Shown here one piece after another: positions 5,990 to 60,024 of a DNA stretch of 64,000 nt (positions within the stretch are counted from its first letter, which is position 1; each line of letters begins with the position of its first letter). The notes under the pieces were generated by a model that was not told where the DNA came from, did no database searches, and worked only from the letters and a program-made list of their open reading frames with translations. The stretch spans positions 1,378,001 to 1,442,000 of the forward strand of contig JACJID010000002.1 in NCBI GenBank assembly GCA_014138725.1, in the 5' to 3' direction. The position numbers and the translations under genes were made by a program. Source of the DNA: Kutzneria viridogrisea (GTDB lineage Bacteria > Actinomycetota > Actinomycetes > Mycobacteriales > Pseudonocardiaceae).

Positions 5990-6212
5990 CGGCGACGACG
6001 AGCCCCGGCCTGAGGCGGGCGAGTCCCGGCCTGAGGCACACGAGTCCCGCCCAGCCGCACGCGAGTCCCGCTCTGGGGACGACGAGTCCCGGCTTGAGGC
6101 GGGCGAGTCCCGGCTAGTAGCGCGCAAGTCCCGCTTCAGGGACGGCGAGTCCCGGCCCAGTGACGGCGAACCCCGCCCTACCACGCGCGAGTCCCGGCCA
6201 GTAGCTCGGCGC
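5990..6212. repeat. Array of about ten degenerate 21-bp units, core CGAGTCCCG
   Basis: Consecutive units such as GCGGGCGAGTCCCGGCCTGAG recur exactly every 21 bp. The core is CGAGTCCCG, with variants CAAGTCCCG, CGAACCCCG and CGAGCCCCG. The region lies between the convergent 3' ends of ndgR and the tRNA genes, upstream of the IS30 element. No stop codon breaks some frames because 21 is a multiple of 3; those open frames look like artefacts. The same unit recurs at six or more other places in the window. Confidence 0.85.
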
Positions 6213-6270
6213 GGAACCTTGACCGTGTCTCGCCGACGACCACCCAGCCACGCTCGCCGACGCGGGCCAT

Positions 6271-6283
6271 GTCCTGAAAGTGC
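6271..6283. repeat. Left stub of a palindrome split by the IS element
   Basis: GTCCTGAAAGTGC at 6271-6283 joins precisely to 7530 onward if the IS and one AAGTGC copy are removed. The rebuilt sequence is a complete member of the TGAAAGTGCCGTTC palindrome family. Confidence 0.75.
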
Positions 6284-7523
6284 GGTGGGTTCATGTGGTG
6301 GTTGCAATGGGGGGTTTGCCGGACAGTACCCGCTGGAGTGCTTCGGCGGGGGTGATCCAGCCCAGGGTCTTGCGGGGCCTGCCGTTGAGCAGGACCGCGA
6401 CGCGTGCGAGGTCCTCCGCGGAGTGCGCGGACAGGTCGGTGCCCTTGGGGAAGTACTGGCGCAGCAGCCCGTTGGTGTTCTCATTCGAGCCACGTTGCCA
6501 GGGTGAGTGCGGGTCACAGAAGTAGATCGCCAGGTCGGTGGCCAGACTGATCTCGGCATGCCGGGCCATCTCCTTGCCCTGGTCCCAGGTCAACGACCGC
6601 CACAGGTGCGTGGGCAGGGACCGGATGGTCTCGATCATCCGGTCCCGCACCCGCGCCGCGTCATGCCCGTCGGGCAGGTGCAGCAGCAGGCAGTACCGGG
6701 TGGAACGCTCGACCAGAGTCCCGATCGCGGACCTGTTACCCCGCCCCAGGATCAGGTCACCCTCCCAATGCCCGGGCACCGCCCGGTCGGCGGCCTCGGC
6801 GGGACGTTCGGAGATACTGACCATGCCCGGGATCCGGCCCGCCCCCGAGACGGGCGCACCGCTGGCCCGGCGGGGGCGGCGTAGCGCCCGCCCGGTCCGC
6901 AGACACGCCGCCAGCTCACGGCGCAACGCGCCCCGGCCCTGGACGTAGATCGACTGGTAGATCGTCTCGTGCGACACCCGCATCTCCGGCCGGTCGGGAA
7001 AGGTCGTCTCCAGCGTGGCAGCGACCTGCTCCGGTGACCAACCCCGCTCCAGCCCGGCCTGGACCCAGCCCCGCAGGACCGGGTCGGAGGCCAGCCGCGC
7101 GACCTTGGGCCGCCGGGCCCGCGCCCTCGCGGCCCGCTCCGCGGCCACCGCCCGATACCCCCGCCGCCCACCGTTACGGCCGACCTCACGACTGACCGTG
7201 CAGGCCGGACGCCCCAGACCCGCCGCGATCCGGGCGAACGAGTCACCCGCGGCGATCCCGCGGGAGATCGCCTCCCGCTCGACCAACGACAGGAACCGGT
7301 TCGACAGTGGGCGGGGCGCGTTACCGATCACCCCGCCAGCCTGCCGGAACCACCGCCGCCCGGTCTCATGACTGACCCCGACCATCCCCGACGCGGGCCG
7401 GACCGCATGACCAGCCCGGACCACCTCCCAAAACCTCACCCGCACAGCGCGGGGTAGCTGGGCCCGTCCAGTCATCACAACTCCACTCGATCACAAGCAG
7501 TGTTGCAACCACCCCCTGAACCC
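6284..7523 (-). mobile_element. IS30-family insertion sequence
   Basis: About 1.24 kb containing one transposase gene. Imperfect terminal inverted repeats are visible: 6286-6307 (TGGGTTCATGTGGTGGTTGCAA) and the complement of 7503-7524, matching at 20 of 22 positions. AAGTGC flanks both ends (6278-6283 and 7524-7529) and may be a target duplication, though IS30 elements usually make shorter ones, so the exact ends are uncertain by a few bases. The element sits inside the stem of a palindromic repeat. It looks intact and may be active. Confidence 0.85.
6291..7478 (-). CDS. IS30-family transposase
   Basis: A 395-residue DDE transposase. The N-terminal helix-turn-helix region (residues ~10-110) includes FWEVVRAGHAVRPASGMVGVS and the IS30-type second HTH. 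The catalytic domain shows the acidic triad: GHWEGDLILG, SLTWDQGKEMARH and DPHSPWQRGSNENTNGLLR. The length is typical or slightly long. The stop codon lies inside the left terminal repeat, a compact layout usual for this family. No frameshift or internal stop is present, so the protein should be functional. Confidence 0.95.
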   Translation of the reverse strand: MMTGRAQLPRAVRVRFWEVVRAGHAVRPASGMVGVSHETGRRWFRQAGGVIGNAPRPLSNRFLSLVEREAISRGIAAGDSFARIAAGLGRPACTVSREVGRNGGRRGYRAVAAERAARARARRPKVARLASDPVLRGWVQAGLERGWSPEQVAATLETTFPDRPEMRVSHETIYQSIYVQGRGALRRELAACLRTGRALRRPRRASGAPVSGAGRIPGMVSISERPAEAADRAVPGHWEGDLILGRGNRSAIGTLVERSTRYCLLLHLPDGHDAARVRDRMIETIRSLPTHLWRSLTWDQGKEMARHAEISLATDLAIYFCDPHSPWQRGSNENTNGLLRQYFPKGTDLSAHSAEDLARVAVLLNGRPRKTLGWITPAEALQRVLSGKPPIATTT

Positions 7524-7565
7524 AAGTGCCGTTCAGGACACTGGATGCCCTGAACGGCACTTTCA
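7524..7565. repeat. Right part of the IS-split palindrome
   Basis: GTGCCGTTCAGG ... CCCTGAACGGCAC is an inverted repeat immediately outside the IS. Together with the stub at 6271-6283 it rebuilds a full palindrome with TGAAAGTGCCGTTCAGG arms. Confidence 0.75.
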
Positions 7566-7619
7566 AGACACCGCAGCCTCGGCTCGGACCGGATACCAGG
7601 TCAACGATGCGCGACGCGC

Positions 7620-7777
7620 CAGTAGTGGCGCGCAAGCCCGGCTCCGGGGACAACGAACCCCACCCTGGCGCGGGCAAGTAACAGCGATCAGGGGAGCACC
7701 AGTCCCGCTCTGCCGTCGACCACGGTCATGAAAGTGCCGTTCATGACACTGACCGTCCCAAAGGGCACCTTCATGAC
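7620..7777. repeat. Decayed 21-bp units followed by a second imperfect palindrome
   Basis: From 7620 to about 7712 there are degraded copies of the CGAGTCCCG unit (GCAAGCCCGG, CGAACCCCAC, CAGTCCCGCTC). 7725-7777 is a decayed member of the palindrome family: TCATGAAAGTGCCGTTCATGAC ... GGGCACCTTCATGAC. Nothing coding is seen between the IS and tRNA-Glu. Confidence 0.7.
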
Positions 7778-7860
7778 CCCACGCCCCGGACAAGGGCCTG
7801 ACAGACCCAAAAAGCGAAAGAGCTCTGGGTAGCAATGCCACCCAGAGCTCTCACACTCTG

Positions 7861-7933
7861 TAGCCCCGACGGGATTCGAACCCGCGCTACCGCCTTGAGA
7901 GGGCGGCGTCCTAGGCCGCTAGACGACGGGGCC
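7861..7933 (-). tRNA. tRNA-Glu (CTC)
   Basis: On the minus strand a 73-nt cloverleaf can be drawn. The acceptor stem is GGCCCCG/CGGGGCT, the anticodon stem-loop CCGCC-CTCTCAA-GGCGG with anticodon CTC, and the T arm GCGGG-TTCGAAT-CCCGT. The discriminator is A and CCA is not encoded. It follows tRNA-Gln on the same strand, as is usual near gltX in actinobacteria. Confidence 0.95.
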
Positions 7934-8002
7934 AGGACTTTCTCTTACTGGACTTACCTTAGCAGATCCTCGGGAGGACCTTGCACCGGGGGTTGTCCAG
8001 TG

Positions 8003-8074
8003 CTGGGGTACCAGGACTCGAACCTAGACTAACTGAACCAGAATCAGTCGTGCTGCCAATTACACCATACCCCA
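8003..8074 (-). tRNA. tRNA-Gln (CTG)
   Basis: A 72-nt cloverleaf on the minus strand. The acceptor stem is TGGGGTA/TACCCCA with discriminator G, the anticodon arm ACTGA-TTCTGGT-TCAGT with anticodon CTG, and a T loop TTCGAGT. CCA is not encoded. It lies 69 bp upstream of tRNA-Glu, probably in one transcript. Confidence 0.95.
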
Positions 8075-8211
8075 ATGGCATTCTGATCAGCTTTGGGCTG
8101 TCCAGCTCTCTTGCCCGTGGCCTCTCCGTGCTGCCGGAATGAATACTAGACCATGAGTGGCCAGAACACGAAATCGACCCCCCACGTGGGCCGACTGCGC
8201 TGGTCAGAGGC

Positions 8212-8946
8212 TCAGCAGACGCCGCCGGACAGCTCGCACACGATCAGCTCGGGCAGCTCCGCCAGACTGCTGATGGTCGATACGCCCGAAGGCGCAGGAC
8301 CCGACTCGCCCGTCCGGTTCAGCCACACCCCGTGCATTCCCGCGTCGCGGGCGCCGATGGCATCCAGATCGAGCCGGTCACCCACGTGCACGGTCTCGGC
8401 CAGGTCCACGCCCAGGTCGAGACAGGCGGTGCGGAAGATGGCGGGATCGGGTTTGGCAACCCCGAGCTCACCTGCGATGACGACCTCGTCGAAGAACTCG
8501 GAAAGCCCCACCGCGGCGATCTTCGCGCGCTGATGGGGCCCCGAGGCGTTGGTCACGGCGGCCACCTTGATGCCGGTGGCGCGCAGCCAGTCCAGGCAGG
8601 GGAGTGTGTCCTCGAACACCCGCCAGGACTGCTCCATCGCGTCCAGCCGGTACTGCTCCCTGCGGTCGACCTCCGCGTCGTCCAGGCACTCCCCGAGGTC
8701 GGCGAAGAAGGCCCTGGTGCGCTCGCGGCGCATGGTGTCGTAGTCGCACTCGCCCGAGATGACCCGCGCCACGTGCTCGTCGGTCGTGCGCTGCCAGGCC
8801 GGCCAAGCGTCATCGCGGCCGATCATCGCGCTCAACACCGATCTCACCGAACCGCCGTAGTCAATCAGCGTGTCGTCGATGTCCAGGCAAACTGCTCGGA
8901 TTTCGGCGGTCTTCTGTGCGGGAACAGCGGGGAGAACGGATGTCAC
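8212..8946 (-). CDS. HAD-superfamily phosphatase
   Basis: A 244-residue HAD hydrolase. Motif I is CLDIDDTLIDYG (nucleophile and acid/base Asp at residues ~22 and 24). Motif II Thr/Ser lies in VTNASGPHQRAK, motif III Lys near GELGVAKPDPAIF, and motif IV in VHVGDRLDLDAIGARDAGM. An alpha-helical cap of about 80 residues sits between motifs I and II, as in the phosphoglycolate-phosphatase/YjjG type. The substrate cannot be assigned. It reads toward the tRNAs and lies just downstream of the gltX remnant, whose operon it probably once shared. Confidence 0.85.
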   Translation of the reverse strand: MTSVLPAVPAQKTAEIRAVCLDIDDTLIDYGGSVRSVLSAMIGRDDAWPAWQRTTDEHVARVISGECDYDTMRRERTRAFFADLGECLDDAEVDRREQYRLDAMEQSWRVFEDTLPCLDWLRATGIKVAAVTNASGPHQRAKIAAVGLSEFFDEVVIAGELGVAKPDPAIFRTACLDLGVDLAETVHVGDRLDLDAIGARDAGMHGVWLNRTGESGPAPSGVSTISSLAELPELIVCELSGGVC

Positions 8947-9016
8947 CAGGTGAGGCTAGGTGTGCGAAGCAGGTCGGCGATTCGGCTAACAAGGTGATCC
9001 TGCGGCCGAGTTGCGG

Positions 9017-9343
9017 TCACTCTCCGCCGATGTTCGATTCCAGTACGCGGTTGGGCCGGTCCAGCGAACGTTCGCGCCCCAGCAGGACCATCGACTCGTA
9101 GAGCAGCGGTGACACAGTGCGACCGGCCACAGCCACCCTGACCGGGGCGAATGCCTTGCACCGCTTGAGCCCCACGCCGTCGACGAGGGCCCCCTCGACA
9201 CCCGCGGCGGTCCCCTCCGGCAGGGCCGTCAGCGCCTGGATGGAGGCCGCCAGCACCGCCCGGGCGTCGGCACCAAGCGCCTTCGCAGCCGAACCCACCT
9301 TCGGGGTGAATTCCTCCTCACGGGTGACAGAAAAGCAATGATC
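9017..9343 (-). pseudogene. gltX: C-terminal remnant of glutamyl-tRNA synthetase
   Basis: The reading frame VGSAAKALGADARAVLAA...VDGVGLKRCKAFAPVRVAVAGRTVSPLLYESMVLLGRERSLDR matches the anticodon-binding C-terminal end of bacterial GltX (typical end: PVRVAVTGR.SPPLFESM.LLGRE.SL.R). The similarity can be followed upstream to about 9340 (FSVTREEEFTPK) and then stops. A GltX of about 490 residues would need another ~1.1 kb, which is absent: the HIGH and KMSKS domains are gone. In related actinobacteria gltX lies between the FAH gene and these tRNAs, so this is the old site. A working copy must exist elsewhere. Confidence 0.8.
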
Positions 9344-9489
9344 GACCGCGCCGCGGAGAGCACCGTGCGCAGCGGGATCTGCCGAGCGTGACGGAGAGCA
9401 GGTCCGCTCCGCGGGCGGCGTCGGCGCCCTCGACGCGGACCGGGTGAACCGGCTTGACCTCGGCCTGCCTCAGGAGCATCCTGAGCTTA

Positions 9490-9505
9490 TTCAACGAGTG
9501 TTGAA
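9490..9505 (+). promoter_or_regulatory. Palindromic operator upstream of FAD monooxygenase
   Basis: TTCAAC-GAGT-GTTGAA is a perfect 6-bp inverted repeat 13 nt before the monooxygenase start. It resembles TetR-type operators found before flavin monooxygenase genes. No TetR gene is adjacent; the regulator would be encoded elsewhere or has been lost. Confidence 0.55.
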
Positions 9506-9518
9506 AAGAGGGGTCGAG

Positions 9519-10745
9519 ATGGACAGGACGACGTGTTGTGTGGTGGGTGGCGGCCCGGCGGGCATGGTGCTGGGGCTGCTGCTGGCGCGGGCGGGCGTTG
9601 ACGTGACGGTGCTGGAGAAGCACGGCGACTTCCTGCGCGACTTCCGCGGCGACACGGTGCACGCCTCGACGCTGAACCTGCTGGACGAACTGGGGCTGGG
9701 TGAGGCGTTCGCGAAGGTGCCGCACCAGAAGGTGACGGAACTGGGACTGCCGGTGGGCACCGACACGACCCTGCCGGTGGACCTGACGAGGTTGCCAGGC
9801 AAGCACAAGCACATCGCGATGGTGCCGCAGTGGGACTTCCTGGACATGCTCGCCGAGGCGGCCAACGCCGAGCCGGGCTTCCACCTGCGGATGAACACCG
9901 AGGCCACCGGCCTGATCACCGACGGGGGCCGGGTCACCGGGGTCGCCTACCGCACCAGGGACGGCCAGACCGGCGAGATCGCCGCCGACCTCACGGTGGC
10001 CTGCGACGGGCGCGGCTCGCTGCTGCGCGCGGCCAAGGGCCTGGGCATCCACTCGTGGCAGGTGCCGATGGACTGCTGGTGGTTCCGGCTGCCACGCACC
10101 GAGGCCGACCGGCGGGGCCTCGGCGGGGTCATCGGCGCCAACCGGATGCTGATCTACATCGACCGCGGCGACTACTTCCAGATCGCGTTCCTGATCGAGA
10201 AGGGCAGCGACGCGCGCTGGCGCGAGGAGGGCGTGCGGTCGCTGCGGGACAGCATCGCGGGAATCGCGCCGTGGCTGGCCGACCGGCTGGACGCCGTCGA
10301 GTCGCTGGACGAGGTCAAGCTGCTGGACGTCAAGCTGGACCGGCTGGACAAGTGGTTCGACGAGGGCCTGCTGTGCATCGGCGACGCGGCGCACGCCATG
10401 TCACCGGTCGGCGGGGTCGGCATCAACCTGGCGGTGCAGGACGCCGTTGCCACGGCACGACTGCTGGCCGGACCGCTGCGCCGGGGCACGGTGACGACCG
10501 CCGACCTGGCCAAGGTGCAGCGCCGTCGCAAGCCGGCCACCGTGATCACCCAGGGCATGCAGCGCCTGCTGCACGACAAGGCCATCAGGCCCGCCCTGCA
10601 GGGGCGGATGGACATCGCTGGTGGCCAGCGGGCGCCGTTGCCGCTGCGGGTGCTGGCGAAGTTCCCGGCGCTGGGCATCCTGCCCGCCTACCTGATGGCG
10701 ATCGGCGTCCGCCCCGAGCACGCCCCCGGGTTCGCCCGCCGCTGA
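9519..10745 (+). CDS. FAD-dependent aromatic hydroxylase-type monooxygenase
   Basis: A 408-residue PHBH-fold flavoprotein. GxGxxG-type FAD site: CCVVGGGPAGMVLGLLLARAGVDVTVLEKH (residues 6-35). The DG motif is TVACDGRGSLLRAAKGL, and the second FAD motif is CIGDAAHAMSPVGGVGINLAVQDA near residue 290. Such enzymes hydroxylate aromatic or polyketide substrates with NAD(P)H and O2; the substrate is unknown. The ATG at 9519 was chosen for the GAGGGG 5 nt upstream; the longer in-frame start at 9444 reads through the operator. It lies in the gap where gltX would be expected and is probably an acquired gene. Confidence 0.88.
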   Translation: MDRTTCCVVGGGPAGMVLGLLLARAGVDVTVLEKHGDFLRDFRGDTVHASTLNLLDELGLGEAFAKVPHQKVTELGLPVGTDTTLPVDLTRLPGKHKHIAMVPQWDFLDMLAEAANAEPGFHLRMNTEATGLITDGGRVTGVAYRTRDGQTGEIAADLTVACDGRGSLLRAAKGLGIHSWQVPMDCWWFRLPRTEADRRGLGGVIGANRMLIYIDRGDYFQIAFLIEKGSDARWREEGVRSLRDSIAGIAPWLADRLDAVESLDEVKLLDVKLDRLDKWFDEGLLCIGDAAHAMSPVGGVGINLAVQDAVATARLLAGPLRRGTVTTADLAKVQRRRKPATVITQGMQRLLHDKAIRPALQGRMDIAGGQRAPLPLRVLAKFPALGILPAYLMAIGVRPEHAPGFARR

Positions 10746-10757
10746 GGACTCACCGGG

Positions 10758-10930
10758 TGCGGCCCCAGCGCGTGTCGGCGCTTCCGGTACCGCGTGTCGG
10801 ACGTTCCGGGACGGTGTGTTGCGCCGACACACCGCACGGGAAACGCCGACACGCGGTGCCCTGCGCGGGACTCGCCCGCGGCAGAACGGGACTCGCGCGC
10901 CGGTGGGCGGGACTCGCGGGCCCCAGAGCG
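10758..10930. repeat. Inverted GTGTCGG blocks plus 21-bp units between convergent genes
   Basis: From 10770 there are direct copies of CGTGTCGG(C/A)G(C/T)TCC, then complementary copies (GCCGACACACCGC, GCCGACACGCGG). After these come three 21-bp units in the inverted sense (GCGGGACTCG at about 10865-10925). The whole set separates the monooxygenase and response-regulator 3' ends. Confidence 0.8.
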
Positions 10931-10934
10931 GGAG

Positions 10935-11582
10935 TCAGTGCGGGACGCGGCCGCTGAGGACCATGGCGACGACCTGGGCCCGGTCCCGTGCGCCGAGTTT
11001 GCGCAGGATCGCCTTCACGTGGGTCTTCACGGTGTCGGTGCTGATGAACAGGTGGCGGCCGATGCTGGTGTTGTCCAGCCCCTTGAGCATCTCGGCCAGC
11101 ACGTCGAACTCGCGGGCGGACAGCTGGGGAAGCCCCGTGTGCGGCGGCAGCTCCGCTGGCGGGCTCACCAACCCGCCCAGCCTCGGGTCGAGCAGGGTGT
11201 CGGTGCCGGTGAGCACCTCGGCGAACGCGGGCAGCAGCTCGCGCAGCGGGGTGGTCTTGAGCAGGTATGCGGAGGCACCCTCCTCCAGTGCCGCCTTGGC
11301 CCATTCGGGGCTGTCCATCTCGCTGACCACCGCCGTGCGCGCCGTGGGCCGGTGTTCGCGCACGTCGCGCACGGTGCGCAGCGGCCCGCCTCCCGGCACG
11401 CACAGATCGGTGATCACGAGGTCGACGAGCAGCCCGCGCAGGCAGCGCAGCGCCTCGGCGGAGGTGTGCGCCACACCGACCACCCGGAAGCGCCGCGTGC
11501 GCTGCAAGCTGATCCGCAGTCCCTCGGTGATCAGCTGCGACGCGTCGACCAGAAGGACCCTTGCCGGATCGCCGATCTCCAT
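10935..11582 (-). CDS. Orphan NarL/FixJ-type response regulator
   Basis: A 215-residue protein with an N-terminal receiver domain and a C-terminal LuxR HTH (LSAREFDVLAEMLKGLDNTSIGRHLFISTDTVKTHVKAILRKLGARDR). The likely phospho-acceptor is Asp59 (DLVITDLCVPGG) and the conserved Lys is in YLLKTTP. One acidic pocket residue is replaced: the usual Asp-Asp is Asp13-Ala14 (LLVDASQL). That raises the possibility of phosphorylation-independent control. No histidine kinase is adjacent. The stop codon falls within a 21-bp repeat unit. It lies between FAH and the gltX remnant and probably arrived with the monooxygenase. Confidence 0.88.
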   Translation of the reverse strand: MEIGDPARVLLVDASQLITEGLRISLQRTRRFRVVGVAHTSAEALRCLRGLLVDLVITDLCVPGGGPLRTVRDVREHRPTARTAVVSEMDSPEWAKAALEEGASAYLLKTTPLRELLPAFAEVLTGTDTLLDPRLGGLVSPPAELPPHTGLPQLSAREFDVLAEMLKGLDNTSIGRHLFISTDTVKTHVKAILRKLGARDRAQVVAMVLSGRVPH

Positions 11583-11599
11583 CGATCACCTCCGCGGCG

Positions 11600-11649
11600 G
11601 CGTTGACGCAGATTGCTGACCTGGACGGTTTCGCAATCCGCGTCAACGC
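11600..11649 (-). promoter_or_regulatory. 17-bp inverted repeat upstream of the response regulator
   Basis: GCGTTGACGCAGATTGC (11600-11616) and GCAATCCGCGTCAACGC (11633-11649) are inverted copies matching at 16 of 17 positions around a 16-nt spacer. They begin 18 bp upstream of the regulator start. I infer an autoregulatory operator. The remaining bases to 11753 hold no gene that I can see. Confidence 0.55.
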
Positions 11650-11753
11650 GGGATAGCACGCCGCGGTTCACCTCCGGAAGCCGCCGGAGGGCCGGTACCC
11701 GCGAAGTTGGGCCGACCGGCCGACGGTGGCACCCGCCGGGCCGCCCAGTCCGG

Positions 11754-12527: not shown

Positions 12528-12536
12528 CTGACCAAC

Positions 12537-14159: not shown

Positions 14160-14201
14160 TTGTCGCGCTCCTCGCGGTGGTGGGGTCGGGCCCTGAAAAG
14201 C

Positions 14202-14231
14202 AAAAAGACCCCCTGCGAAGGCAAGAGGTCT
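14202..14231 (-). terminator. Attenuator terminator upstream of cimA
   Basis: On the minus strand AGACCTCTTGC pairs with GCAGGGGGTCT (two G-U pairs) around CTTC, followed by a T run. It lies about 43 bp before the cimA GTG and directly after the leader hairpin, as expected for a transcription attenuator. Confidence 0.75.
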
Positions 14232-17451: not shown

Positions 17452-17460
17452 GGGTCGTCA

Positions 17461-26884: not shown

Positions 26885-27189
26885 GCGCCGACACGCCAGC
26901 CAGCCGCGCGTGTCGGCGCTTCGAGCACCGCGTGTCGGCGCCTCACGTACGGTGTGTCGGCGCTTCGCGTACGTGCTCCCAGCGCTTGGGATTTCGTACC
27001 GGAACTGTCAACACGCCGTACCGGAACCGCCGACACGCGGTACCGCAAGCGCCGACACGCGCCGCCCCACCCCGCGAGTCCCGCTCTGGTGCACGCGAGT
27101 CCCGCCCGGCCGCTCGCGAATCCCGGTCACCAGCGGGCGAGTCCCGCCCGGCCACGCGCGAGTCCCGCCCAGCCGCCCGCGAATCCCGG
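26885..27189. repeat. Composite inverted GTGTCGGCGC blocks and six 21-bp units
   Basis: The first half holds three copies of CG(T)GTGTCGGCGCTTCG-type sequence, then a centre around GTGCTCCCAGCGCTTGGG, then three complementary GCCGACACGCG copies. It continues into six units with CGAGTCCCG or CGAATCCCG every 21 bp (27067-27189). The last unit abuts the GNAT stop. The block lies between convergent ilvD and GNAT genes. Confidence 0.85.
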
Positions 27190-35254: not shown

Positions 35255-35395
35255 CCGGCGAGTCCCGCTCTCCCGCACGCGAGTCCCGCTCTCCAACGCA
35301 CGAGTCCCGCCCTGCGGACCACCGCTGGGCGGGACTCGGTTGCTGCTGAGCGGGACTCGTCGTCCCCAGAGCGGGACTCGCGGTCGGTTGGTGGC
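35255..35395. repeat. Inverted arrangement of 21-bp CGAGTCCCG units
   Basis: Three units read CGAGTCCCGC (35259-35310) and three read the complement GCGGGACTCG (35330-35392), each spaced 21 bp. This makes one long imperfect inverted repeat between the convergent lipoprotein and gatB 3' ends. Confidence 0.85.
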
Positions 35396-46934: not shown

Positions 46935-47176
46935 CAGGCGTCGCGTGTCGGCGCTTCGCGGGCGGCGTGTCGGCGCTTCCTGCACGGTGTGTTCGCGCTT
47001 CGCGGGCGGTGTGTCGGCGCTCCGCGGGCGGTTTCCCAGTTCGTGGGAGGCCGCACGGCGGGCGCGAACACGGCGTACCGCTGGCGCCGACACGCGGTAC
47101 CGGACGCGCCGACACGCGGGGTTCAGGCGTCACCACGCGGGACTCGCGGGCCGGTGAGCGGGACTCGCCGTCGGCG
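46935..47176. repeat. Composite inverted GTGTCGGCGC blocks with two 21-bp units
   Basis: Four direct GTGT(C)GGCGCTTC/TCC copies (46947-47025), a centre near GTTTCCCAGTTCGTGGGAGG, then complementary GCGCCGACACGCGG copies (47083-47120). Two GCGGGACTCG units lie at 47137 and 47158. The block separates convergent YeiH and beta-lactamase-like genes. Confidence 0.8.
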
Positions 47177-50143: not shown

Positions 50144-50163
50144 CTAGCAGCCTGTGACTCGGC

Positions 50164-51201: not shown

Positions 51202-51239
51202 GTCGGACAGTGTGTCCTGCCGGTGTGCACAGCGCCCAA

Positions 51240-52184: not shown

Positions 52185-52196
52185 AGGAGCTTCACC

Positions 52197-53901: not shown

Positions 53902-53912
53902 GTGCGTCCCCC

Positions 53913-54719
53913 TCAGTCCGTCAGCGGCAGCACGAGCTGCGGCTTGGCGATGGTGTGGTCCTCGCGCAGCGGCCGGATCGCCGTGCCGATCGCGAAGAAC
54001 TCCGTGGTGTGCCCGCCCCAGTTGTGCGGCAGGGACAGCAGTTGCACGCCCACGATGCCCTCGGCGGCCAGCTGCTCGGCCTCGGCCTGCATGCGGCTCA
54101 TGGCCAGCTCCCGCGCGTCGTAGAGGGCCTCGGTGAACTGCGGGATCTCCACGTTCTGCCCGATGTTGCCGATCGCCTGCCAGAACCGCTGGTGCGCCAC
54201 GTGGTACACGCAGGTGCCCATCACCATGCCCAGCGGGGCGTAACCGGACTGGATCAGCGTCCAGAAGTCCTGCCCGCTCAGGTCCGAGGTGAACGGTTTG
54301 CCCGTGTTGTTGCGCCACTGGCCGGGTTCGTCCGCCTTGACCGCCGTGCCCACCGCGATGAACTCGGCCAGGTCGTTGCCGAACTGCTTGAAGTCGATCT
54401 CCAGGCGGACGCCCACGATGCCGTCGGCGCCGAGCACCTCGGCCTCGGCCTCCATGCGGGTCATGGCCAGCTCCCTGGCGTGGTACATCGCCTGGGAGAG
54501 CACCTCCAGCTCCTGGTTGCGGTTCCACCGGCCCAGTTGGAAGCCCACGTGGTAGATGCTCGACCCGAGCACCAGGCCCAGCGGCCGGAACCCCGCCTCG
54601 CGCACGAGCAGGAACTCGTTGACGCTCAGGTCCGAGGTGAACAGGCTGCCCTGCTGGCCGGGGCGCATGTGCGACAACCGGTTCAGCGCGTCCTGCGGGA
54701 TGCCTTGTGGGGTGCTCAT
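53913..54719 (-). CDS. Tandem YbjQ-type (heavy-metal-binding domain) protein
   Basis: A 268-residue protein made of two YbjQ/UPF0145-like domains (about 25-130 and 140-262). Each has the family pattern ...LGxVxGxxxYHV...LxxAxYxARELAMxRMxAEAExLGADGIVGV, then ...EFxAIGTAV/I. YbjQ folds into ring-like pentamers; metal binding is only suggested by the domain name. Two direct copies in one chain imply gene duplication. Its start overlaps the preceding YbjQ-like gene (ATGA). Confidence 0.85.
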   Translation of the reverse strand: MSTPQGIPQDALNRLSHMRPGQQGSLFTSDLSVNEFLLVREAGFRPLGLVLGSSIYHVGFQLGRWNRNQELEVLSQAMYHARELAMTRMEAEAEVLGADGIVGVRLEIDFKQFGNDLAEFIAVGTAVKADEPGQWRNNTGKPFTSDLSGQDFWTLIQSGYAPLGMVMGTCVYHVAHQRFWQAIGNIGQNVEIPQFTEALYDARELAMSRMQAEAEQLAAEGIVGVQLLSLPHNWGGHTTEFFAIGTAIRPLREDHTIAKPQLVLPLTD

Positions 54720-55507
54720 CGGCGGTTCCTGTTCTCTGTCAGCGGCATGACGGTCAGCGCACCGGTCGGTGCCCTGCGCGCCCCCGGGTCGTGGACGATG
54801 GTGGTGCCGAACGCGGTGGCCATCGCGAAGACCACCGCCTCCTGGTAGGCCCAGCTGTCCACGCTGAGGGCGCCGACGATCGCGCCCTCGGCGTGTCCGC
54901 TGTGGACGGCGGCGTCCAGTTCGGCCCGCGCCCTGGACCGCACGCGGGTGATCAGCCTGGTGAACACGGGGATCTCGTTGTTGCCCGCGAACGGGGTCAT
55001 CCGCGAGCGGGTCGTGTAGTCCACCTGCACGGCGTCCACCGCCACGGCGACCGCCACGTCCACCGGGCGCCAGCCGCCGTGCAGCAGCTTGGCCACGTCG
55101 GTACCGGACAACTCGGTCGTGAACAGGTGCCCGGTCGGCGGCCACGGGGCGTGCACCGCCGTGCCCAGCACCACGAACTCGGTCGCGAACCCGCCCACCG
55201 GCTTGGTCTGGATCCGCACGCCGACCACCCCGTGCGCCCCGATGCCGCGCGCCTCCACCCGCATCCGGTCCAGGGCCACCCGGTAGCCGCGGCGGATGCC
55301 GCGCTCGTAGCCAGCGGCGTCGTAGTAGCGCACCTGCTGGCCCTGCACCACGCAGCCCATCACCTCGCCGACCGGCGTGAGGTCCACTCCGCGCAGGCCC
55401 GCGGCCGCCGGGGTGGACAGCAGCGAGGTGCGCAGCCCCGAGGCGGCCGCCCTGCGGATGCGCTCGGCGGCGACCGGTGGCAGGCCCTGCCCGTCCCATT
55501 CGGCCAC
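54716..55507 (-). CDS. Second, divergent YbjQ-type protein
   Basis: A 263-residue protein with one well-conserved and one degenerate YbjQ-like half: YYDAAGYERGIRRGYRVALDRMRVEARGIGAHGVVGVRIQTKPVGG...FATEFVVLGTAVHAP, then TELSGTDVAKLLHGGWRPVDVAVAVAV and ...AIVGALSVDSWAYQEAVVFAMATAFGTTIV. The GTG at 55507 follows GGAGAGGAGG. It leads a three-gene operon. A cell-surface or stress role is often proposed for the family; none can be shown here. Confidence 0.8.
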   Translation of the reverse strand: MAEWDGQGLPPVAAERIRRAAASGLRTSLLSTPAAAGLRGVDLTPVGEVMGCVVQGQQVRYYDAAGYERGIRRGYRVALDRMRVEARGIGAHGVVGVRIQTKPVGGFATEFVVLGTAVHAPWPPTGHLFTTELSGTDVAKLLHGGWRPVDVAVAVAVDAVQVDYTTRSRMTPFAGNNEIPVFTRLITRVRSRARAELDAAVHSGHAEGAIVGALSVDSWAYQEAVVFAMATAFGTTIVHDPGARRAPTGALTVMPLTENRNRR

Positions 55508-55694
55508 GGCGCCTCCTCTCCCCCGTCCATCGTGGCACTGCTCGCCGTGACGGCAACGTGATGCGCGGCGCGGGGTGTCGAGGCAATCGGGCAGACAGGA
55601 CGACCCCGGCGATCACCTGGTACGCCCCAGGTCCTGCTGGGACGGTCGCGGCGGTGCAGACTGCGCGGAGCAGTTCGCCACGAGGAGGAACCTC

Positions 55695-56045
55695 ATGCAC
55701 GTCGTCGCCCAGGTGCTGGTCGGGCTGGTCGCCCTGATCCACGTCTACATCCTCGTGCTGGAGATGTTCCTGTGGACGACCCCGCGCGGGCGTGCCGCGT
55801 TCGGCCTGGAGCCGGAGTTCGCCGAGCAGACCAAGGCGCTGGCCGCCAACCAGGGCCTCTACAACGGCTTCCTGGCCGCCGGGCTGATCTGGGGCCTGAT
55901 CGGTAGCTGGCCCGCCCAGGTGTTCTTCCTGGTCTGCGTGGTCGTCGCGGGAGTGTACGGCGCGGCCACCGCGAGCAGGCGCATCCTGTACGTGCAGGCG
56001 CTGCCGGCCGTGCTGGCGCTGATCGCCGTTCTGGTCTCCGGCTGA
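55695..56045 (+). CDS. DUF1304 membrane protein
   Basis: A 116-residue four-helix membrane protein: MHVVAQVLVGLVALIHVYILVLEMFLWTTPRGRAAFGL is the DUF1304 start, with further TMs at ~50-70, 75-92 and 97-115. The function is unknown. The ATG at 55695 follows GAGGA; longer upstream in-frame starts lack any conserved sequence. Confidence 0.9.
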   Translation: MHVVAQVLVGLVALIHVYILVLEMFLWTTPRGRAAFGLEPEFAEQTKALAANQGLYNGFLAAGLIWGLIGSWPAQVFFLVCVVVAGVYGAATASRRILYVQALPAVLALIAVLVSG

Positions 56046-56191
56046 GCGCGTCCCGGCTACCATCGGCGCCGGACCGACCCCAGCGAGTGAACTTCCGACG
56101 AACTCCCGCCGACGCCTAGCTCTTTCGGGGCTAGTCCTCGGTTCCCGACTCGGCTGATACTGCGTCCACGCGGCCGGGTGGAGGGAGGGTC

Positions 56192-57451
56192 ATGAACCGA
56201 CCGTTCCCGCTCCGCCCTGCCACGTGGGCGCTGCGCCACGCACCACGAAGCGTGCTCGTGTTCTACCTCAGCGTGGAAGCGCTTGCCTTGGTGCTGGTGT
56301 TCGCCCTGCCCAGTCCGGCGCCCACGGGGCTGGACTGGCTGCACTTCGCGGTGCTGCTCGGGCTCGGCGTGGCCCAGGCCGAGCTGTCCCGGCGCACCGA
56401 ACGGCTGCGCCGCTACCTGGTCGGCACGGTCAACGCCGACATGGCCTCGGTGTGGACCTTCGCGGGCGCGCTGGTGCTGCCCTCGCTGCTGGCCGCCCTG
56501 TTGACCGTGGGCGTCTACCTGCACCTGATCGGCCGGGTCTGGCGCGCGCCGTCCAGCCGTCCGACCAACCGGATCGTGTTCAGCGCCAGCACGGTGGTGC
56601 TCGCCTGCCTGGCCGTCGGCCCGGTCCTGCGCGCCGTCGCGGGCGGCACCGAACTGGACATGGGCCCGCGCGGGCTGGTGGCCGTGGCGCTCGCGATGCT
56701 CGCCTACACGCTGATCAACAGCGTGCTGGTGTTCGTCGGCCTGCGGCTGCGGCACCCGGACAGCCCGCTGAGCACGCTCACCGGCGGCTGGGACAACAAC
56801 GTGCTCGAACTGGCCACGCTGTGCCTTGGCGCGATGACCGCCGCGGTGCTGGCCTCCCGGCCGTACCTGGTGCCGCTGATCCTGCTGCCGATCGTGATGC
56901 TGCACCGCAGCATGCTGATGCGCCAGTTCCAGGAGATGGCCACCCGCGACCAGAAGACCGGGGTACTCAACGCCGTGGCCTGGCACGACGTGGCCACCAG
57001 GGAGCTGGACCGCGCCACCAGGCAGCTCGGCGGCTTCGGCGTGCTGATGATCGACATCGACCACTTCAAACGGGTCAACGACACGCACGGCCACCTGGTC
57101 GGCGACACGGTGCTCAAGCACGTGGCGGTGGCGCTGGAGCAGCACGTCCGCGACTACGACTCGGTGGGCCGCTTCGGCGGTGAGGAATTCGTGGTGCTGC
57201 TGCCCGAGACGCCGCACGCCGACGTGATCAGCGTGGCCGAGCGCCTGCGCAACGCCATCGGCGACCTGGTGATCCGCGACCAGGCAGCGACCGTGACCGA
57301 CCTGTCGGCCTCCATCGGCGTGGCGGTCTACCCGCACGACGGGCTGGTGATCGACCGCCTGCTGATGGCCGCCGACAACGCCCTGTACGTGGCCAAGCGC
57401 ACCGGCCGCAACCGGGTCGTCAGCCTGGCCGACCGCGGCGAATCCGCCTGA
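56192..57451 (+). CDS. Membrane-bound diguanylate cyclase
   Basis: A 419-residue protein: six or so TM segments in residues ~20-235, then a GGDEF domain. The active-site motif is GGEEF and an I-site RxxD (RDYD) lies five residues before it, so product feedback by c-di-GMP is likely. No EAL domain and no extracellular sensor domain are present; the membrane region itself may sense. GGAGGGAGGG precedes the ATG. The 146 bp upstream contain a small CTAGC/GCTAG hairpin but no riboswitch that I recognise. Confidence 0.93.
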   Translation: MNRPFPLRPATWALRHAPRSVLVFYLSVEALALVLVFALPSPAPTGLDWLHFAVLLGLGVAQAELSRRTERLRRYLVGTVNADMASVWTFAGALVLPSLLAALLTVGVYLHLIGRVWRAPSSRPTNRIVFSASTVVLACLAVGPVLRAVAGGTELDMGPRGLVAVALAMLAYTLINSVLVFVGLRLRHPDSPLSTLTGGWDNNVLELATLCLGAMTAAVLASRPYLVPLILLPIVMLHRSMLMRQFQEMATRDQKTGVLNAVAWHDVATRELDRATRQLGGFGVLMIDIDHFKRVNDTHGHLVGDTVLKHVAVALEQHVRDYDSVGRFGGEEFVVLLPETPHADVISVAERLRNAIGDLVIRDQAATVTDLSASIGVAVYPHDGLVIDRLLMAADNALYVAKRTGRNRVVSLADRGESA

Positions 57452-57489
57452 TCCTCGGCGAGCGGCCCACCCCGCAGCGACCCAGCAGC

Positions 57490-57602
57490 GCGTGTCGGAC
57501 GTTCCGGTACCGCGTGTCGGCGCTTGCGGTACGCGGTCTCACGGGCTGGGAAACCGCCCGCTGAGTGCGAACACACCGTCCGCGAAGCGCCGACACGCGG
57601 GG
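57490..57602. repeat. Inverted GTGTCGG block
   Basis: CGTGTCGGACGTTCCGGTACCG and CGTGTCGGCGCTTGCGGTACGCGG, a centre near GGTCTCACGGGCTGGGAAACC, then GCGAAGCGCCGACACGCGG in the inverted sense. It is the same architecture as at 26885 and 46935. Confidence 0.75.
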
Positions 57603-57773
57603 CCCACCCGGTGAGTCCGCGCTTTCGGTACGGCGAGTCCCGCCCTGGGGCACGCGGGGCCCACCCGGTGAGTCCGCGCTTTCGGTACGGCGAGTCCCGC
57701 CCTGGGGCACGCGGGGCCCACCCGGTGAGTCCGCGCTTTCGGTACGGCGAGTCCCGCCCTGGGGCACGCGAGT
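57603..57773. repeat. Three near-identical 57-bp tandem repeats
   Basis: The unit starting CCCACCCGGTGAGTCCGCGC recurs at 57603, 57660 and 57717 with period 57 and almost no differences. Each copy contains one CGAGTCCCG core. Its identity suggests recent duplication, by slippage or assembly; it lies in the convergent gap between the cyclase and LysR genes. Confidence 0.9.
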
Positions 57774-57910
57774 CCCGGCCTCAGGCACGCGAGTCCCGCG
57801 CAGCCGCAGCCGAATCCCGCCCTGGGGCACGCGAGTCCGGCTCTGGGGAGCGCGAGTCCCGGCCTCAGGCAGGCGAATCCCGGGCAGCCGCGGGCGAGTC
57901 CCGCGCAGGT
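57750..57910. repeat. Eight 21-bp CGAGTCCCG units running into the LysR 3' end
   Basis: Units such as CGCGAGTCCCGGCCTCAGGCA follow one another at 21-bp steps from 57750. The LysR gene on the other strand ends at 57865, within the array, so its last ~14 codons are made of repeat sequence. Confidence 0.85.
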
Positions 57911-58794
57911 GAGGGCTCCAGCACCTCGCCGAGCAGCGCCACGAGTTCGGCGACGAGTGCGGGCGGGCGCTTGCGGTGCACGACGTAGATCTCGCGGGCC
58001 GGGCGGATCCCACGCAGCTCGCGGACCGCCAGCCTGCTGGTGTCGATCTGGCTGAGCACGGTGATCGGCACCAACGAGATGCCCAGCCCGGCGGCGATGA
58101 GCGCGAGCGTCACCTCGTAGTCACGGGTCTCGTAGGCGACGTGCGGGCGCACTCCCGCGGCGCCGGCCAGGTGGTCCAGGCAGATCCGGTTGGGGATGCC
58201 CAGACCGCCGGAAATCCAGTCCTGGTCGGCCAGGTCGGCGAGTCCGATGTGGCCGGTGGCCCTGGGGTGGCCCGCGGGCAGCACGAGCCGCAGCGGGTCG
58301 GTGAGCAAACGCTTGCGGTGCAGGCCTGTGGCGCTGGGCAGGGTGCCGCCCGGGTAGCGGTGGGTGATGAGCAGGTCCAGGTCGCGCGAGGTGACCAGCC
58401 CGTAGCCCTCGGGCGGCTCGACGTCCACGAGGGACAGTTGCGCCGTGGGGTGCCTGCGGCGCAGGGCGGACAGCGCTTCCGGCACGAGCACCTTGCCCGC
58501 GGAGGAGAACGTGCCGATGGCCACGCGCTGCGGTTCGGCGCCGCGCACGGCCAGTTCGGCCTCACGCAGGTCGCCGAGCACGCGTTCGCCGTAACCGAGC
58601 AGGACCCGGCCGTTGGCCGTGAGGCGGACCCCGGTCGGGCCGCGCTCGACGAGTCGGCAGCCGACCTCGCGTTCGAGCTTGGCCAACTGCTGGGACAGCG
58701 CGGAGGGCGTGAACGACATGCGTTGTGCCGCCGCGGCGATGGAACCGGCATGCGCGACTTCGACCAGCACGCGCAGCCTGGCCAGGTCGAGCAT
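57865..58794 (-). CDS. LysR-family regulator with repeat-derived C-terminus
   Basis: A 309-residue LysR protein: HTH LARLRVLVEVAHAGSIAAAAQRMSFTPSALSQQLAKLEREVGCRLVERG (residues ~4-55) and a substrate-binding domain. It is divergent from a PLP dehydratase-like gene, with 69 bp between starts. Its last residues (SPARDSPAAARDSPA) are encoded by the 21-bp repeat array, so the original stop has apparently been lost or displaced. TTAAGTGCTCCTAA (58794-58807) at its start codon is a possible autoregulatory site. Confidence 0.88.
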   Translation of the reverse strand: MLDLARLRVLVEVAHAGSIAAAAQRMSFTPSALSQQLAKLEREVGCRLVERGPTGVRLTANGRVLLGYGERVLGDLREAELAVRGAEPQRVAIGTFSSAGKVLVPEALSALRRRHPTAQLSLVDVEPPEGYGLVTSRDLDLLITHRYPGGTLPSATGLHRKRLLTDPLRLVLPAGHPRATGHIGLADLADQDWISGGLGIPNRICLDHLAGAAGVRPHVAYETRDYEVTLALIAAGLGISLVPITVLSQIDTSRLAVRELRGIRPAREIYVVHRKRPPALVAELVALLGEVLEPSPARDSPAAARDSPA

Positions 58795-58863
58795 TAAGTG
58801 CTCCTAAGGTCGGGCCATTAGACTTCACTGGCGATTATGGCTGCTCCGGCTCACAGTGGTGCC

Positions 58864-59766
58864 ATGAACAAGCCGACCGCAGCCGATGTCGCCGAGGCGA
58901 CCGACCGGATCCGCCCCTACACCAGGCGCACGCCGTTGCTGCGCACCGAAGTGGACGGCAGGCCGCTGGTGCTGAAGCTGGAGCACCTGCAACTGAGCGG
59001 GTCCTTCAAGCTGCGCGGCGCGGTCAACGCCCTGCGCCACGGGGAGCGGCCGGACCAGGTGGTGACGGCCTCCGGTGGCAACCACGGGCTGGCGGTGGCC
59101 ACGGCGGCCGGGCTGCTCGGCGTGCAGGCCACGGTCTACGTGCCGGAGGGCACCCCGGCGGGCAAGGCGCGGCGGATCGAGGCCGCGGGCGCCAAGCTGG
59201 TGCGACACGGTCGGCACTACGCGGAGGCCGCGGCCGCTGCCGTGGACGAGGCGGCGGCGAGCGGCGCCAGGTACCTGCCCGCCTACGACGACCCCGCGGT
59301 GGTGGCGGGCCAGGGCACGATGGGTGCCGAGATCGTCGCCGACGCGCCCGAGGTGGACGCCGTGCTGGTCGCGGTCGGCGGCGGCGGGCTGGCCGCGGGC
59401 ACCGCGCTGGCGATCGGTCCCCGGCAGACGGTCGCCGTGGAGCCGGAGGGGTGCAGTGCGCTGCACCAGGCGCTGGCGGCCGGTGAGCCGGTGGACGTGG
59501 CGGTGGAGTCGGTGGCCTCCTCGGCGCTGGGCGCGACGCGGGTGGGCGCCGTGCCGTTCGCGGTGCTCAACGCGCCGGGGACCAGGTCTGTTCTGGTCAG
59601 CGACGCGGAGCTGCTCGCGGCCCGGGACCGGTTGTGGGAGGAGTTCCGGCTCGCCGTCGAGCCTGCGGCTGCCGTGCCGTTCGCGGCTTGGCTGGCGGGC
59701 CGGGTGGCGGCCGAACTGCCGTGTGTCGTGCTGTGCGGGGCGAACACGGACTGGACGCCCGCCTGA
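58864..59766 (+). CDS. Threonine/serine dehydratase-like PLP enzyme
   Basis: A 300-residue fold-type II PLP enzyme. The Schiff-base Lys lies in LSGSFKLRGAVNAL (about residue 50), the Asn-containing phosphate loop in TASGGNHGLAVA, and the Gly-rich loop in VAVGGGGLAAGTALA. It is shorter than IlvA and lacks a regulatory ACT domain, so it is a catabolic or racemase-type relative; the substrate is not fixed. The ATG at 58864 was taken because the family start (ADVAEATDRIRPYTRRTPLL) follows. It is probably controlled by the divergent LysR protein. It ends 11 bp before a perfect 24-bp hairpin. Confidence 0.87.
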   Translation: MNKPTAADVAEATDRIRPYTRRTPLLRTEVDGRPLVLKLEHLQLSGSFKLRGAVNALRHGERPDQVVTASGGNHGLAVATAAGLLGVQATVYVPEGTPAGKARRIEAAGAKLVRHGRHYAEAAAAAVDEAAASGARYLPAYDDPAVVAGQGTMGAEIVADAPEVDAVLVAVGGGGLAAGTALAIGPRQTVAVEPEGCSALHQALAAGEPVDVAVESVASSALGATRVGAVPFAVLNAPGTRSVLVSDAELLAARDRLWEEFRLAVEPAAAVPFAAWLAGRVAAELPCVVLCGANTDWTPA

Positions 59767-59777
59767 GCGGGCCGGGT

Positions 59778-59830
59778 GGCGTGAAGGTGGCTTTCACTGC
59801 GCTGTACGCAGTGAAAGCCACCTTCACGCC
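59778..59830. repeat. Perfect 24-bp palindrome serving as terminator
   Basis: GGCGTGAAGGTGGCTTTCACTGCG (59778-59801) and its exact complement (59807-59830) enclose CTGTA. It belongs to the same family as 17461-17505 but carries GGTGGCTTTC instead of GTGCCGTTC. It lies between convergent genes. Confidence 0.88.
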
Positions 59831-59877
59831 ACTCCGGGTCTGCCTCCCGCCCTGCGGCACCGCCCATGCCGCTGACG

Positions 59878-60024
59878 GGACTCACGCCCGGGTAAGCGGG
59901 ATTCACGCGCGCCAGAACGGGACTCGTCCACACCAGAGCGGGACTCGCCGCCGCCAAAGCGGGACTCACGCCCGAGTGAACGGGACTCACGCGCACCAAA
60001 GCGGGACTCGCCGACCGGGTGTGA
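59878..60024. repeat. Seven 21-bp units in the inverted sense (GCGGGACTC)
   Basis: Units such as GCGGGACTCGCCGCCGCCAAA recur every 21 bp from about 59878. The P450 stop lies just beyond, at 60032. Confidence 0.85.

Follow-up and report, generated by a model that had tools for sequence, protein, structure and literature searches.

What are the short, evenly spaced repeats that lie behind so many genes of Kutzneria viridogrisea, and what could they do there? The question is raised by a stretch of 64,000 nucleotides (the window), in which a sequence-only reading had picked out seven arrays of a conserved core repeated at 21-bp steps. In the part of the open-access literature surveyed for such repeats and for roadblock termination, no description of such arrays was found.

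The 21-bp lattice and its 22-bp sister family

All seven arrays were recovered in 21-bp register, at the same coordinates or a few bases off (Table 1); that at 35255-35395, as corrected, consists of three units facing three inverted units. The window contains 33 exact CGAGTCCCG cores, compared with 2.32 +/- 1.68 (maximum 7) in 100 dinucleotide-preserving shuffles. Genome-wide, 679 pairs of CGAGTCCCG are spaced exactly 21 bp (690 with a step of 20-22 bp) and the control, the pattern read backwards, gave 0 in both counts, so the step holds as claimed and the family is larger than first described. When nine spacings (17 to 25) were tested with a three-core pattern, 116 matches in the genome fell at 21 and 1 elsewhere. 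Of the steps between same-strand neighbours, 310/351 in the first 1.264 Mb and 131/148 in another 400 kb measure exactly 21 bp. The 14- and 28-bp periods given by a chained-step period test were dismissed as artefacts of 42 = 3x14 and 84 = 3x28. A coding origin (21 bp being 7 codons) was also rejected, because the sister family has a 22-bp unit and the arrays begin behind stop codons.

Table 1. Positions of repeat arrays and adjoining elements in the window
Feature	Position	Strand	Description
Hairpin	5962-5992		12-bp stem, separate from array, just ahead of 5999..6208 array
21-bp array	5999..6208	+	10 grid slots, 9 cores with at most 1 mismatch, one-way
22-bp family units	10772..10852	.	inverted arrangement, without canonical centre
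21-bp array	10866..10916	-	3 cores, adjoining 22-bp family units
Symmetric 22-bp element	26910..27058	.	3 units per side; 17-bp centre CTCCCA-N5-TGGGAT at 26976-26992
21-bp array	27075..27188	+	6 cores with at most 1 mismatch
21-bp array	35259..35309	+	3 cores, face-to-face with 35330..35380 array, 29 bp start to start
21-bp array	35330..35380	-	3 cores; gap between glucose/sorbosone-dehydrogenase-like gene and gatB
Symmetric 22-bp element	46945..47115	.	4 units left, 3 right; centre TTCCCA-N5-TGGGAG at 47033-47049
21-bp array	47138..47167	-	2 cores
Symmetric 22-bp element	57492..57596	.	2 units per side; centre GTCTCA-N5-TGGGAA at 57536-57552
57-bp tandem repeat	57594..57770	+	3.1 copies, 100% matches, one CGAGTCCCG core per copy
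21-bp array	57748..57903	+	8 cores with at most 1 mismatch; last two overlap 3' end of convergent gene 57865-58794 (LysR-type by Pfam)
21-bp array	59876..60010	-	7 slots, 6 cores with at most 1 mismatch

The extended consensus of the unit is about CNG-CGAGTCCCG-NYCWS-NGG. The core is kept more than the rest of the unit, as had been claimed (identity 8.16/9, against 6.26/12 for the spacers of adjacent units), a difference partly inherent in the way the arrays were detected. The sequence between cores, described earlier as variable, is indeed less conserved but is not free to vary; positions 11-14 tend to Y-C-W-S and, the last unit of each array set aside, 94% of units have G at position 17. Most arrays (87%) also have a G directly ahead of their first core, and the G-rich strand of the unit carries one conserved GGG. 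Spacers at lag 1 are scarcely more alike than those of different arrays (5.62/12), near-identical pairs making up 3% and 2% respectively, while the core is kept; a simple satellite produced by slippage was rejected on these grounds, in agreement with the sequence-only reading. Block duplications are evident as raised spacer identity at lags 2, 3, 5, 8 and 11. No complementary covariation was found within the unit among 149 distinct units (largest paired-over-expected excess 0.10), which led to the rejection of a within-unit RNA hairpin such as CGCTC-TGGG-GAGCG, convincing when seen singly.

The phasing persists where the arrays change orientation. Back-to-back flips are 21 bp apart in 6 of 8 cases in a first set and 2 of 2 in a second; the first-set exceptions are a 7-bp chance core and a 44-bp distance with a GTGTC-containing stretch in between. 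Face-to-face flips lie near 19, 29, 39 or 50 bp. Chance one-mismatch cores (14 and 15 bp face-to-face, 7 bp back-to-back) were dropped before counting, and the 14 face-to-face distances kept from the 16 of the first set are 19, 28, 28, 29, 29, 30, 38, 38, 38, 39, 39, 40, 50 and 80 bp, with a Rayleigh R of 0.90 (0/5000 uniform draws as high). A ladder of about 8.5+10.3n was fixed before the second set was examined. This small set, from ten stretches picked for holding arrays and used for spacing and 22-bp elements, not for placement, gave 29, 39, 40, 51, 59 and 107 bp (134/5000 uniform draws as high); the 107-bp case, with 22-bp units in between, is in the Rayleigh figure and out of the ladder count. 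All five short distances are at most 1.5 bp off the pre-set ladder, and against a ladder refitted on the first set 4/5 fit (p 0.03), 51 bp being the miss. The helix idea passes a test that the sequence-only reading had not proposed, in that face-to-face flips step by roughly 10 bp. Face-to-face cores do not share the phase of back-to-back ones, however (about 8-9 bp + n x 10.3 against 21), and a single face for every core is too simple. The four flips measured in other genera, at 38, 72, 109 and 117 bp after a 1-bp correction, showed no clear ladder fit.

A second family, overlooked in the sequence-only reading, has the 22-bp unit GTGTCGGCGCTTC-N9 and lies beside or near 4 of the 7 window arrays. 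Its units are mirrored about a TTCCCA-N5-TGGGAA centre, in three such elements in the window, and keep to their grid across it: 13/15 face-to-face pairs are 48, 70, 92 or 114 bp apart, and the remaining two 46 and 68 bp. Mirrored spacers agree at 4.83/9 positions compared with 5.39/9 between elements; since they are not matched, the symmetry is that of DNA sites and not of an RNA stem.

Gene ends, hairpins and RNA structure

By the calls of a simple in-house gene finder, 7/7 window arrays are in convergent gaps. The statement that every array is convergent and never in a promoter region thus stands for the window but fails for the wider genome, where 97 arrays over 1.464 Mb divide into 59 convergent, 33 codirectional, 4 divergent and 1 overlapping a gene end. 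Among gaps of at least 40 bp, an array is present in 37/130 convergent, 24/393 codirectional and 3/209 divergent ones, and the equal frequency in promoters and genes that the sequence-only reading had named as contradicting it was not seen. Its claim of 3'-end placement is supported: 57/92 arrays overlap a stop codon or lie within 25 bp of one, and 19 of the 33 in codirectional gaps follow the upstream stop codon by no more than 50 bp. Relative to the nearer gene, 60/92 are in the sense orientation (p 0.005).

Arrays and hairpins are anticorrelated. With the array sequence masked, and convergent gaps below 40 bp or above 600 bp left out, terminator-like stems were present in 10/31 gaps with an array and 56/88 without (Fisher p 0.003). 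In these 10 gaps a stem of at least 10 persists beyond the masked array, so the arrays are not invariably hairpin substitutes. By reading, about half of the stems left are those of the 22-bp family. The syntenic gatB gap, which has an inverted array in K. viridogrisea, has a hairpin in four relatives (G001, G002, G003 and G006). The scarcity of hairpins and the gatB gap lend indirect support to the termination role that had been suggested, which remains a putative one.

One-way arrays of at least 4 units (n=29) displayed no mean excess of RNA structure on either strand (mean fold z +0.13 and +0.26; single arrays ranged from -3.5 to +3.4), and in this respect do not match an intrinsic terminator with its RNA hairpin and U run. 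Face-to-face arrays are able, by reading, to form imperfect stems. A known RNA family for the arrays was rejected after an Rfam search of the window at gathering thresholds gave two tRNAs as sole matches. Inside these tRNAs fall two cores with 1 mismatch each (7870 and 8012); the core is like a T-loop/T-stem stretch, which may hint at a tRNA-derived origin.

Relatives and comparable systems

The arrays are spread through the family and their core drifts. A sequence model of the 21-bp arrays gave at least 5 matches in 61/297 genomes of Pseudonocardiaceae, and one or two weak matches in 11 genomes of a 149-genome phylum sample outside the family. Exact 21-bp CGAGTCCCG pairs number 0-7 in six genomes of the same genus, compared with the 679 in K. 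viridogrisea, and 21-bp arrays with other cores recur in many genera. Three-core matches at 21 and elsewhere among spacings of 17 to 25 numbered 36 and 1 in G020 and 6 and 0 in G009, in stretches picked around core matches, where array density is not representative. At one gatB locus (L121) there are, by reading, 21-bp arrays with the core CGTGTCCGCA. This core is outside the pattern of a degenerate three-core scan that gave 0 matches in 18 Pseudonocardiaceae-group gatB loci. Those 18, pooled from the 80 named gatB loci of a lag analysis with exact 8-mers, did not have 21 bp as their top lag; in convergent gaps the leading lag was 22 bp. Dispersed palindromes of G005 and G006 have the core at both ends, resembling terminal inverted repeats, and core-to-core distances across these palindromes (62, 64, 64, 71, 73 and 81) gave no clear ladder fit. 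Long palindromes in relatives with the core at their ends, some with T-runs outside, are like bidirectional intrinsic terminators. G001 carries a run of the heptamer GAGTCCC.

REP, BIME and REPIN elements resemble the arrays in their many short intergenic copies and their convergent and unidirectional bias (here 59 + 33 of 97). One study places GTAG REPs in intergenic DNA, predominantly between convergent and unidirectional genes, and indicates that not all REP-bearing species have a RAYT (PMC3733652). REP and BIME units are, however, imperfect palindromes of 20-40 bp, whereas the 21-bp units are non-palindromic (149 distinct units, no covariation) and run head-to-tail with a fixed two-turn step. 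A REP-type transposase as mover of the repeats was rejected, as the profile of the Y1 (RAYT-type) transposase, PF01797, had no match in the K. viridogrisea genome (0/1), compared with matches in 5/14 control genomes. Plasmid iterons consist of direct repeats, each about 20-22 bp long and kept in helical register, with a conserved core and variable remainder, in few to many copies. The arrays have the same register (441/499 same-strand steps exactly 21 bp), but unlike iterons occur as dozens per Mb at gene 3' ends, with no replication locus as far as seen. The G-rich heptamers of Xanthomonas and Nostoc are enriched in noncoding DNA, frequently no more than 50 bp from a stop codon, and under-represented between divergent genes; they have a 7-bp unit, occur preferentially as four units and are linked to quadruplexes (PMC4692102). 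The likeness is in tandem noncoding repeats close to stop codons and rare between divergent genes; the difference is a 21-bp unit with one conserved GGG on its G-rich strand, where the heptamers give closely spaced G-tracts. Reb1 and TTF-I sites are protein-roadblock terminators, at which a DNA-bound protein halts RNA polymerase behind a gene. They resemble the arrays in proposed mode of action, the latter being bacterial, arrayed where Reb1 and TTF-I have one or few sites, and bound by a putative protein.

Possible roles of the arrays

The explanation we tentatively prefer, at somewhat below even confidence, is that the arrays at the 3' ends of genes bind protein in the manner of iterons, serving as a two-way roadblock terminator or boundary in place of hairpins. 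We infer protein binding, a block to RNA polymerase and one protein lineage reading all the cores. A sequence-specific putative protein would occupy each core on double-stranded DNA, and neighbouring bound proteins might touch at the fixed two-turn step, in the manner of initiator proteins on plasmid iterons. Inversions would be retained solely at helix-compatible distances. The 22-bp elements would be mirror-symmetric relatives whose dyad centre could nucleate a dimer. Placed directly after stop codons, and in many cases between two convergent genes, such a nucleoprotein block could do the job of hairpin terminators, stopping or insulating transcription from both directions, and so plausibly stands in for them. 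The sense bias, which a purely symmetric block does not need, and the 4/97 arrays in divergent gaps count against this.

The same phasing would equally fit a protein bound for chromosome topology or nucleoid organisation (gyrase- or GapR-like, at positive supercoils from convergent transcription), not termination. BIME/REP arrays of E. coli bind gyrase at gene 3' ends, and the arrays here are commonest in convergent gaps (37/130) and rare in divergent ones (3/209). We nevertheless consider this unlikely: it does not predict the scarcity of hairpins in array gaps, and a head-on supercoil domain is not expected at the 19/33 codirectional arrays close behind an upstream stop codon. A repeat family with no host function, spread or expanded by recombination and confined to the space behind genes because it does harm elsewhere, is likewise an improbable account. 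Lineage-specific copy number (679 pairs against 0-7), visible block duplications (lags 2, 3, 5, 8 and 11) and the core at both palindrome ends in G005 and G006 all suit it; yet adjacent units are rarely recent copies (3% vs 2%) though cores and step persist, flips occur at quantised distances, many genera have related 21-bp arrays built on other cores, and the Y1 REP transposase has no match in the genome.

Action at the RNA level, with transcribed arrays that fold into hairpins or load Rho as a terminator or 3'-end stabiliser, is already weakened and seems to us quite improbable. The fold z means of the 29 one-way arrays (+0.13 and +0.26), the lack of covariation in 149 distinct units and of mirrored matching in the symmetric 22-bp elements all oppose it, and pairing does not explain why back-to-back cores lie 21 bp apart and face-to-face ones step by 10 bp, although in relatives long palindromes are bounded by cores (in some cases with T-runs beyond them), face-to-face arrays can make imperfect stems by reading, and the sense bias (60/92) is in keeping. 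A constant core, a variable 12-bp part and a fixed step also recall a CRISPR-like miniature repeat-spacer memory, or plasmid-type iterons for replication or partition. Either is very improbable indeed, the 12-bp 'spacers' being short and sharing the consensus YCWS..G, and dozens of arrays per Mb being dispersed across gene ends where iteron-type Rep binding implies a single replication or partition locus.

How transcription is ended and convergent genes are kept apart in GC-rich actinomycetes is still an open field. Extrapolation from 97 arrays in 1.464 Mb gives several hundred in the genome, and arrays of known core offer bait for the putative protein, together with predicted transcript-end positions. 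That the Pseudonocardiaceae end many transcription units with phased protein arrays behind stop codons in place of RNA hairpins, through a co-evolving core, a 22-bp sister and a putative protein lineage, is conceivable but doubtful. If the arrays do block polymerase, they would represent protein-based gene ending in bacteria, and would also be of use as a small insulator acting in both directions. Should their role be structural, helix-phased intergenic arrays found family-wide with a drifting core would still be a clear case of DNA-protein co-evolution.

Core counts and unit anatomy

The core CGAGTCCCG is present in 33 copies in the window, against 2.3 expected. All seven arrays picked out by the sequence-only reading were present, and their 21-bp register was confirmed. 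The genome scan for cores at 21-bp spacing that it had proposed was run on G000, the genome carrying the window (10,249,642 bases in 11 contigs); 690 core pairs lay at 20-22 bp, 679 of them at exactly 21 bp, and the reversed control pattern gave none. Some large regions seem to be avoided by the arrays. On contig C1 no exact core pair was listed over about 840 kb (approximately 462 kb-1,300 kb), and the adjoining stretches are rich in such pairs. Two tRNA genes in the window (7861-7933 and 8003-8074, minus strand) each contain one array core with a single mismatch, at 7870 and 8012.

Unit anatomy was determined from 97 arrays (490 units) in contiguous stretches totalling 1.464 Mb. The arrays range from 2 to 28 slots, with the unit consensus CGAGTCCCG-N-Y-C-W-S-N-G-G. 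Conservation of the core itself is partly by construction, because arrays were found via their cores, and the conserved flanking positions are free of that effect. The first core is directly preceded by G in 87% of the arrays, and position 17 is G in 94% of non-last units. Neighbouring units are not near-copies, since spacer identity is 6.26/12 for adjacent units, compared to 5.62/12 between arrays; block duplications become apparent at a lag of 2 or 3 units and at certain larger lags. CGT replaces CGA in the first unit of 9/97 arrays and in 3/393 other units, an excess which may mark the start of an array.

Position at gene ends and the 22-bp partner element

Genes were called with a simple home-made finder, and missed genes may hide in long codirectional distances; on these calls, 59 of the 97 arrays fall between convergent genes, 33 between codirectional and 4 between divergent ones, and one overlaps a gene end. 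Among gaps of at least 40 bp, arrays occupied 37 of the 130 convergent ones, 24 of the 393 codirectional ones and 3 of the 209 divergent ones. Convergent and codirectional gaps together account for 92 arrays, of which 57 overlapped the nearest stop codon or were within 25 bp of it; among the 33 codirectional ones, 19 had the upstream stop within 50 bp.

One-way arrays were rejected as RNA hairpins. The mean folding z of the 29 such arrays with four or more units was +0.13 and +0.26 by strand (single values from -3.5 to +3.4), and no pairing covariation was found within the units. Stems of 10 or more were then counted in convergent gaps of 40-600 bp with the array sequence masked. In G000 they were observed in 10/31 gaps with an array, compared to 56/88 without (Fisher p 0.003); the same-genus genomes G005 and G006 gave 13/19 and 17/25, and shuffled gaps 8/119. 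By reading, about half of the stems in the 10 array gaps belong to the 22-bp family. The gap at gatB (GatB assigned by Pfam) holds a 3+3 inverted array in G000, and by reading an ordinary hairpin in the same-genus genomes G001, G002, G003 and G006, with the corresponding gene ends in G004 and G005 falling outside the comparison. The 21-bp arrays occupy the niche of RNA hairpins, the one-way ones without being RNA hairpins. A dispersed terminator-like palindrome, approximately GTCATGAAAGTGCCGTTC...GAACGGCACTTTCATGAC, was seen in array-free gaps, at 17452 in the window and in many convergent gaps of G000.

TRF and direct reading revealed a 22-bp family, GTGTCGGCGCTTC-N9; four of the seven arrays in the window have it alongside or nearby. 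Its elements are mirror-like, with two to four units, then a 17-bp centre, TTCCCA-N5-TGGGAA, then inverted units, all on a single 22-bp grid; 13/15 face-to-face pairs of units are 48, 70, 92 or 114 bp apart. A strict search of 1.664 Mb gave 11 symmetric elements, three of them in the window. Convergent gaps house nine of the 11. Four are no more than 500 bp from a 21-bp array, and all four belong to the C2 stretch that surrounds the window. Mirrored spacers (4.83/9 alike) are no more alike than the spacers of other elements (5.39/9), which makes the symmetry look like one of DNA sites. The 21-bp and 22-bp families may be related, to judge from cores which start alike (CGAGTC and often CGTGTC). 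Situated between the two element types, a 57-bp tandem repeat appears to be a recent amplification.

Location of the partner elements, the tandem repeat and the dispersed palindromes
Feature	Location	Description
22-bp element	window, centre 26976	strict search
22-bp element	window, centre 47033	strict search
22-bp element	window, centre 57536	strict search
57-bp tandem repeat	window 57594-57770	3.1 copies, 100% matches; each copy has one array core plus a TTTCGGTACGG stretch
Dispersed palindromes, about 70-90 bp	loci L086, L088, L091, L095, L096, L099, L101 (G005, G006)	both ends carry CGAGTCCCG or a near copy

Helical phasing and orientation flips

Of the same-strand steps in the first 1.264 Mb, 310/351 were exactly 21 bp, as were 131/148 in a second set of 400 kb. 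Back-to-back flips were at 21 bp in 6/8 and 2/2 cases, respectively, the two exceptions being 7 bp (a chance core) and 44 bp, with a GTGTC-containing stretch in between. Face-to-face distances cluster near 19, 29, 39, 50 and 80 bp. After removal of two chance cores, the 14 distances of the first set fell on a ladder with a period of about 10.25 bp (Rayleigh 0.90, reached by 0/5000 uniform draws). A ladder was fixed in writing before the second set was retrieved; the distances in that set were 29, 39, 40, 51 and 59 bp, plus 107 bp with 22-bp units between. All five short distances were within 1.5 bp of the pre-written ladder, and four of five of a refitted one (p 0.03); with the 107 bp kept, the Rayleigh figure was matched by 134/5000 uniform draws.

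Such face-to-face steps are predicted by rotational register on B-DNA, and not by slippage or RNA pairing. Counting against rotational register, the face-to-face phase differs from the back-to-back phase, the few flips in other genera show no clear fit to the ladder, and neither do the G005 and G006 palindromes, with core distances of 62-81 bp.

Relatives and possible function

Long palindromes in G005 and G006 carry the core at either end; most are located directly 3' of stop codons, and some have outer T-runs. The two species have different inner parts in these palindromes, which have the appearance of bidirectional terminators that are mobile or have been copied. An element with two units per arm and a common loop is found in G003, G005 and G006. 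True 21-bp arrays with changed cores are present in other genera, namely in G020 (CGAGATCCGC), in G009 (CGAGTYGCAC and CGTGTCCTGC) and in Saccharomonospora sp. NB11 (CGTGTCCGCA). A degenerate three-core scan at 21 bp gave 116 matches in G000, 36 in G020 and 6 in G009, with at most one per genome elsewhere in the 17-25 bp range; no match came from the stretches of G005 and G006 or from the 80 gatB loci. A sequence-only model was built on 19 three-unit arrays, G000, G009 and G020 being in the training set. It matched (E 0.001 or better) at least 108 of 297 Pseudonocardiaceae genomes and at least 25 of 46 genera, with five or more matches in at least 61 genomes and 17 genera by hand count; these are lower bounds because 18 candidates were scored per genome. 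Among 149 Actinomycetota genomes, strong or many matches were confined to the window's own genome, and 11 others had one or two weak ones. In G001 a run of the heptamer GAGTCCC (L043, C14 at about 78,400; 21 = 3 x 7) is reminiscent of the Xanthomonas and Nostoc heptamers.

REP/BIME elements are placed like the 21-bp arrays in the parts consulted (PMC3733652), but the label fails on unit palindromes and on transposase. A published survey of spaced motif pairs across 569 prokaryotic genomes describes, in the portion consulted, other pairs between convergent genes, the array motif not being among them (PMC5217627). A word search of the K. albida genome paper (PMC4210621) gave no such repeat, and the mainly open-access literature covered gave no description of the arrays. 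Their organisation resembles that of iterons, an analogy by which any replication role would be putative.

A role in chromosome topology, instead of termination, is a serious rival explanation, as is a repeat family without function. We nevertheless favour arrays bound by a putative protein and, less firmly, a service in ending or insulating transcription. What can be said most safely is that the arrays form a DNA-level family, helically phased and located at gene 3' ends.
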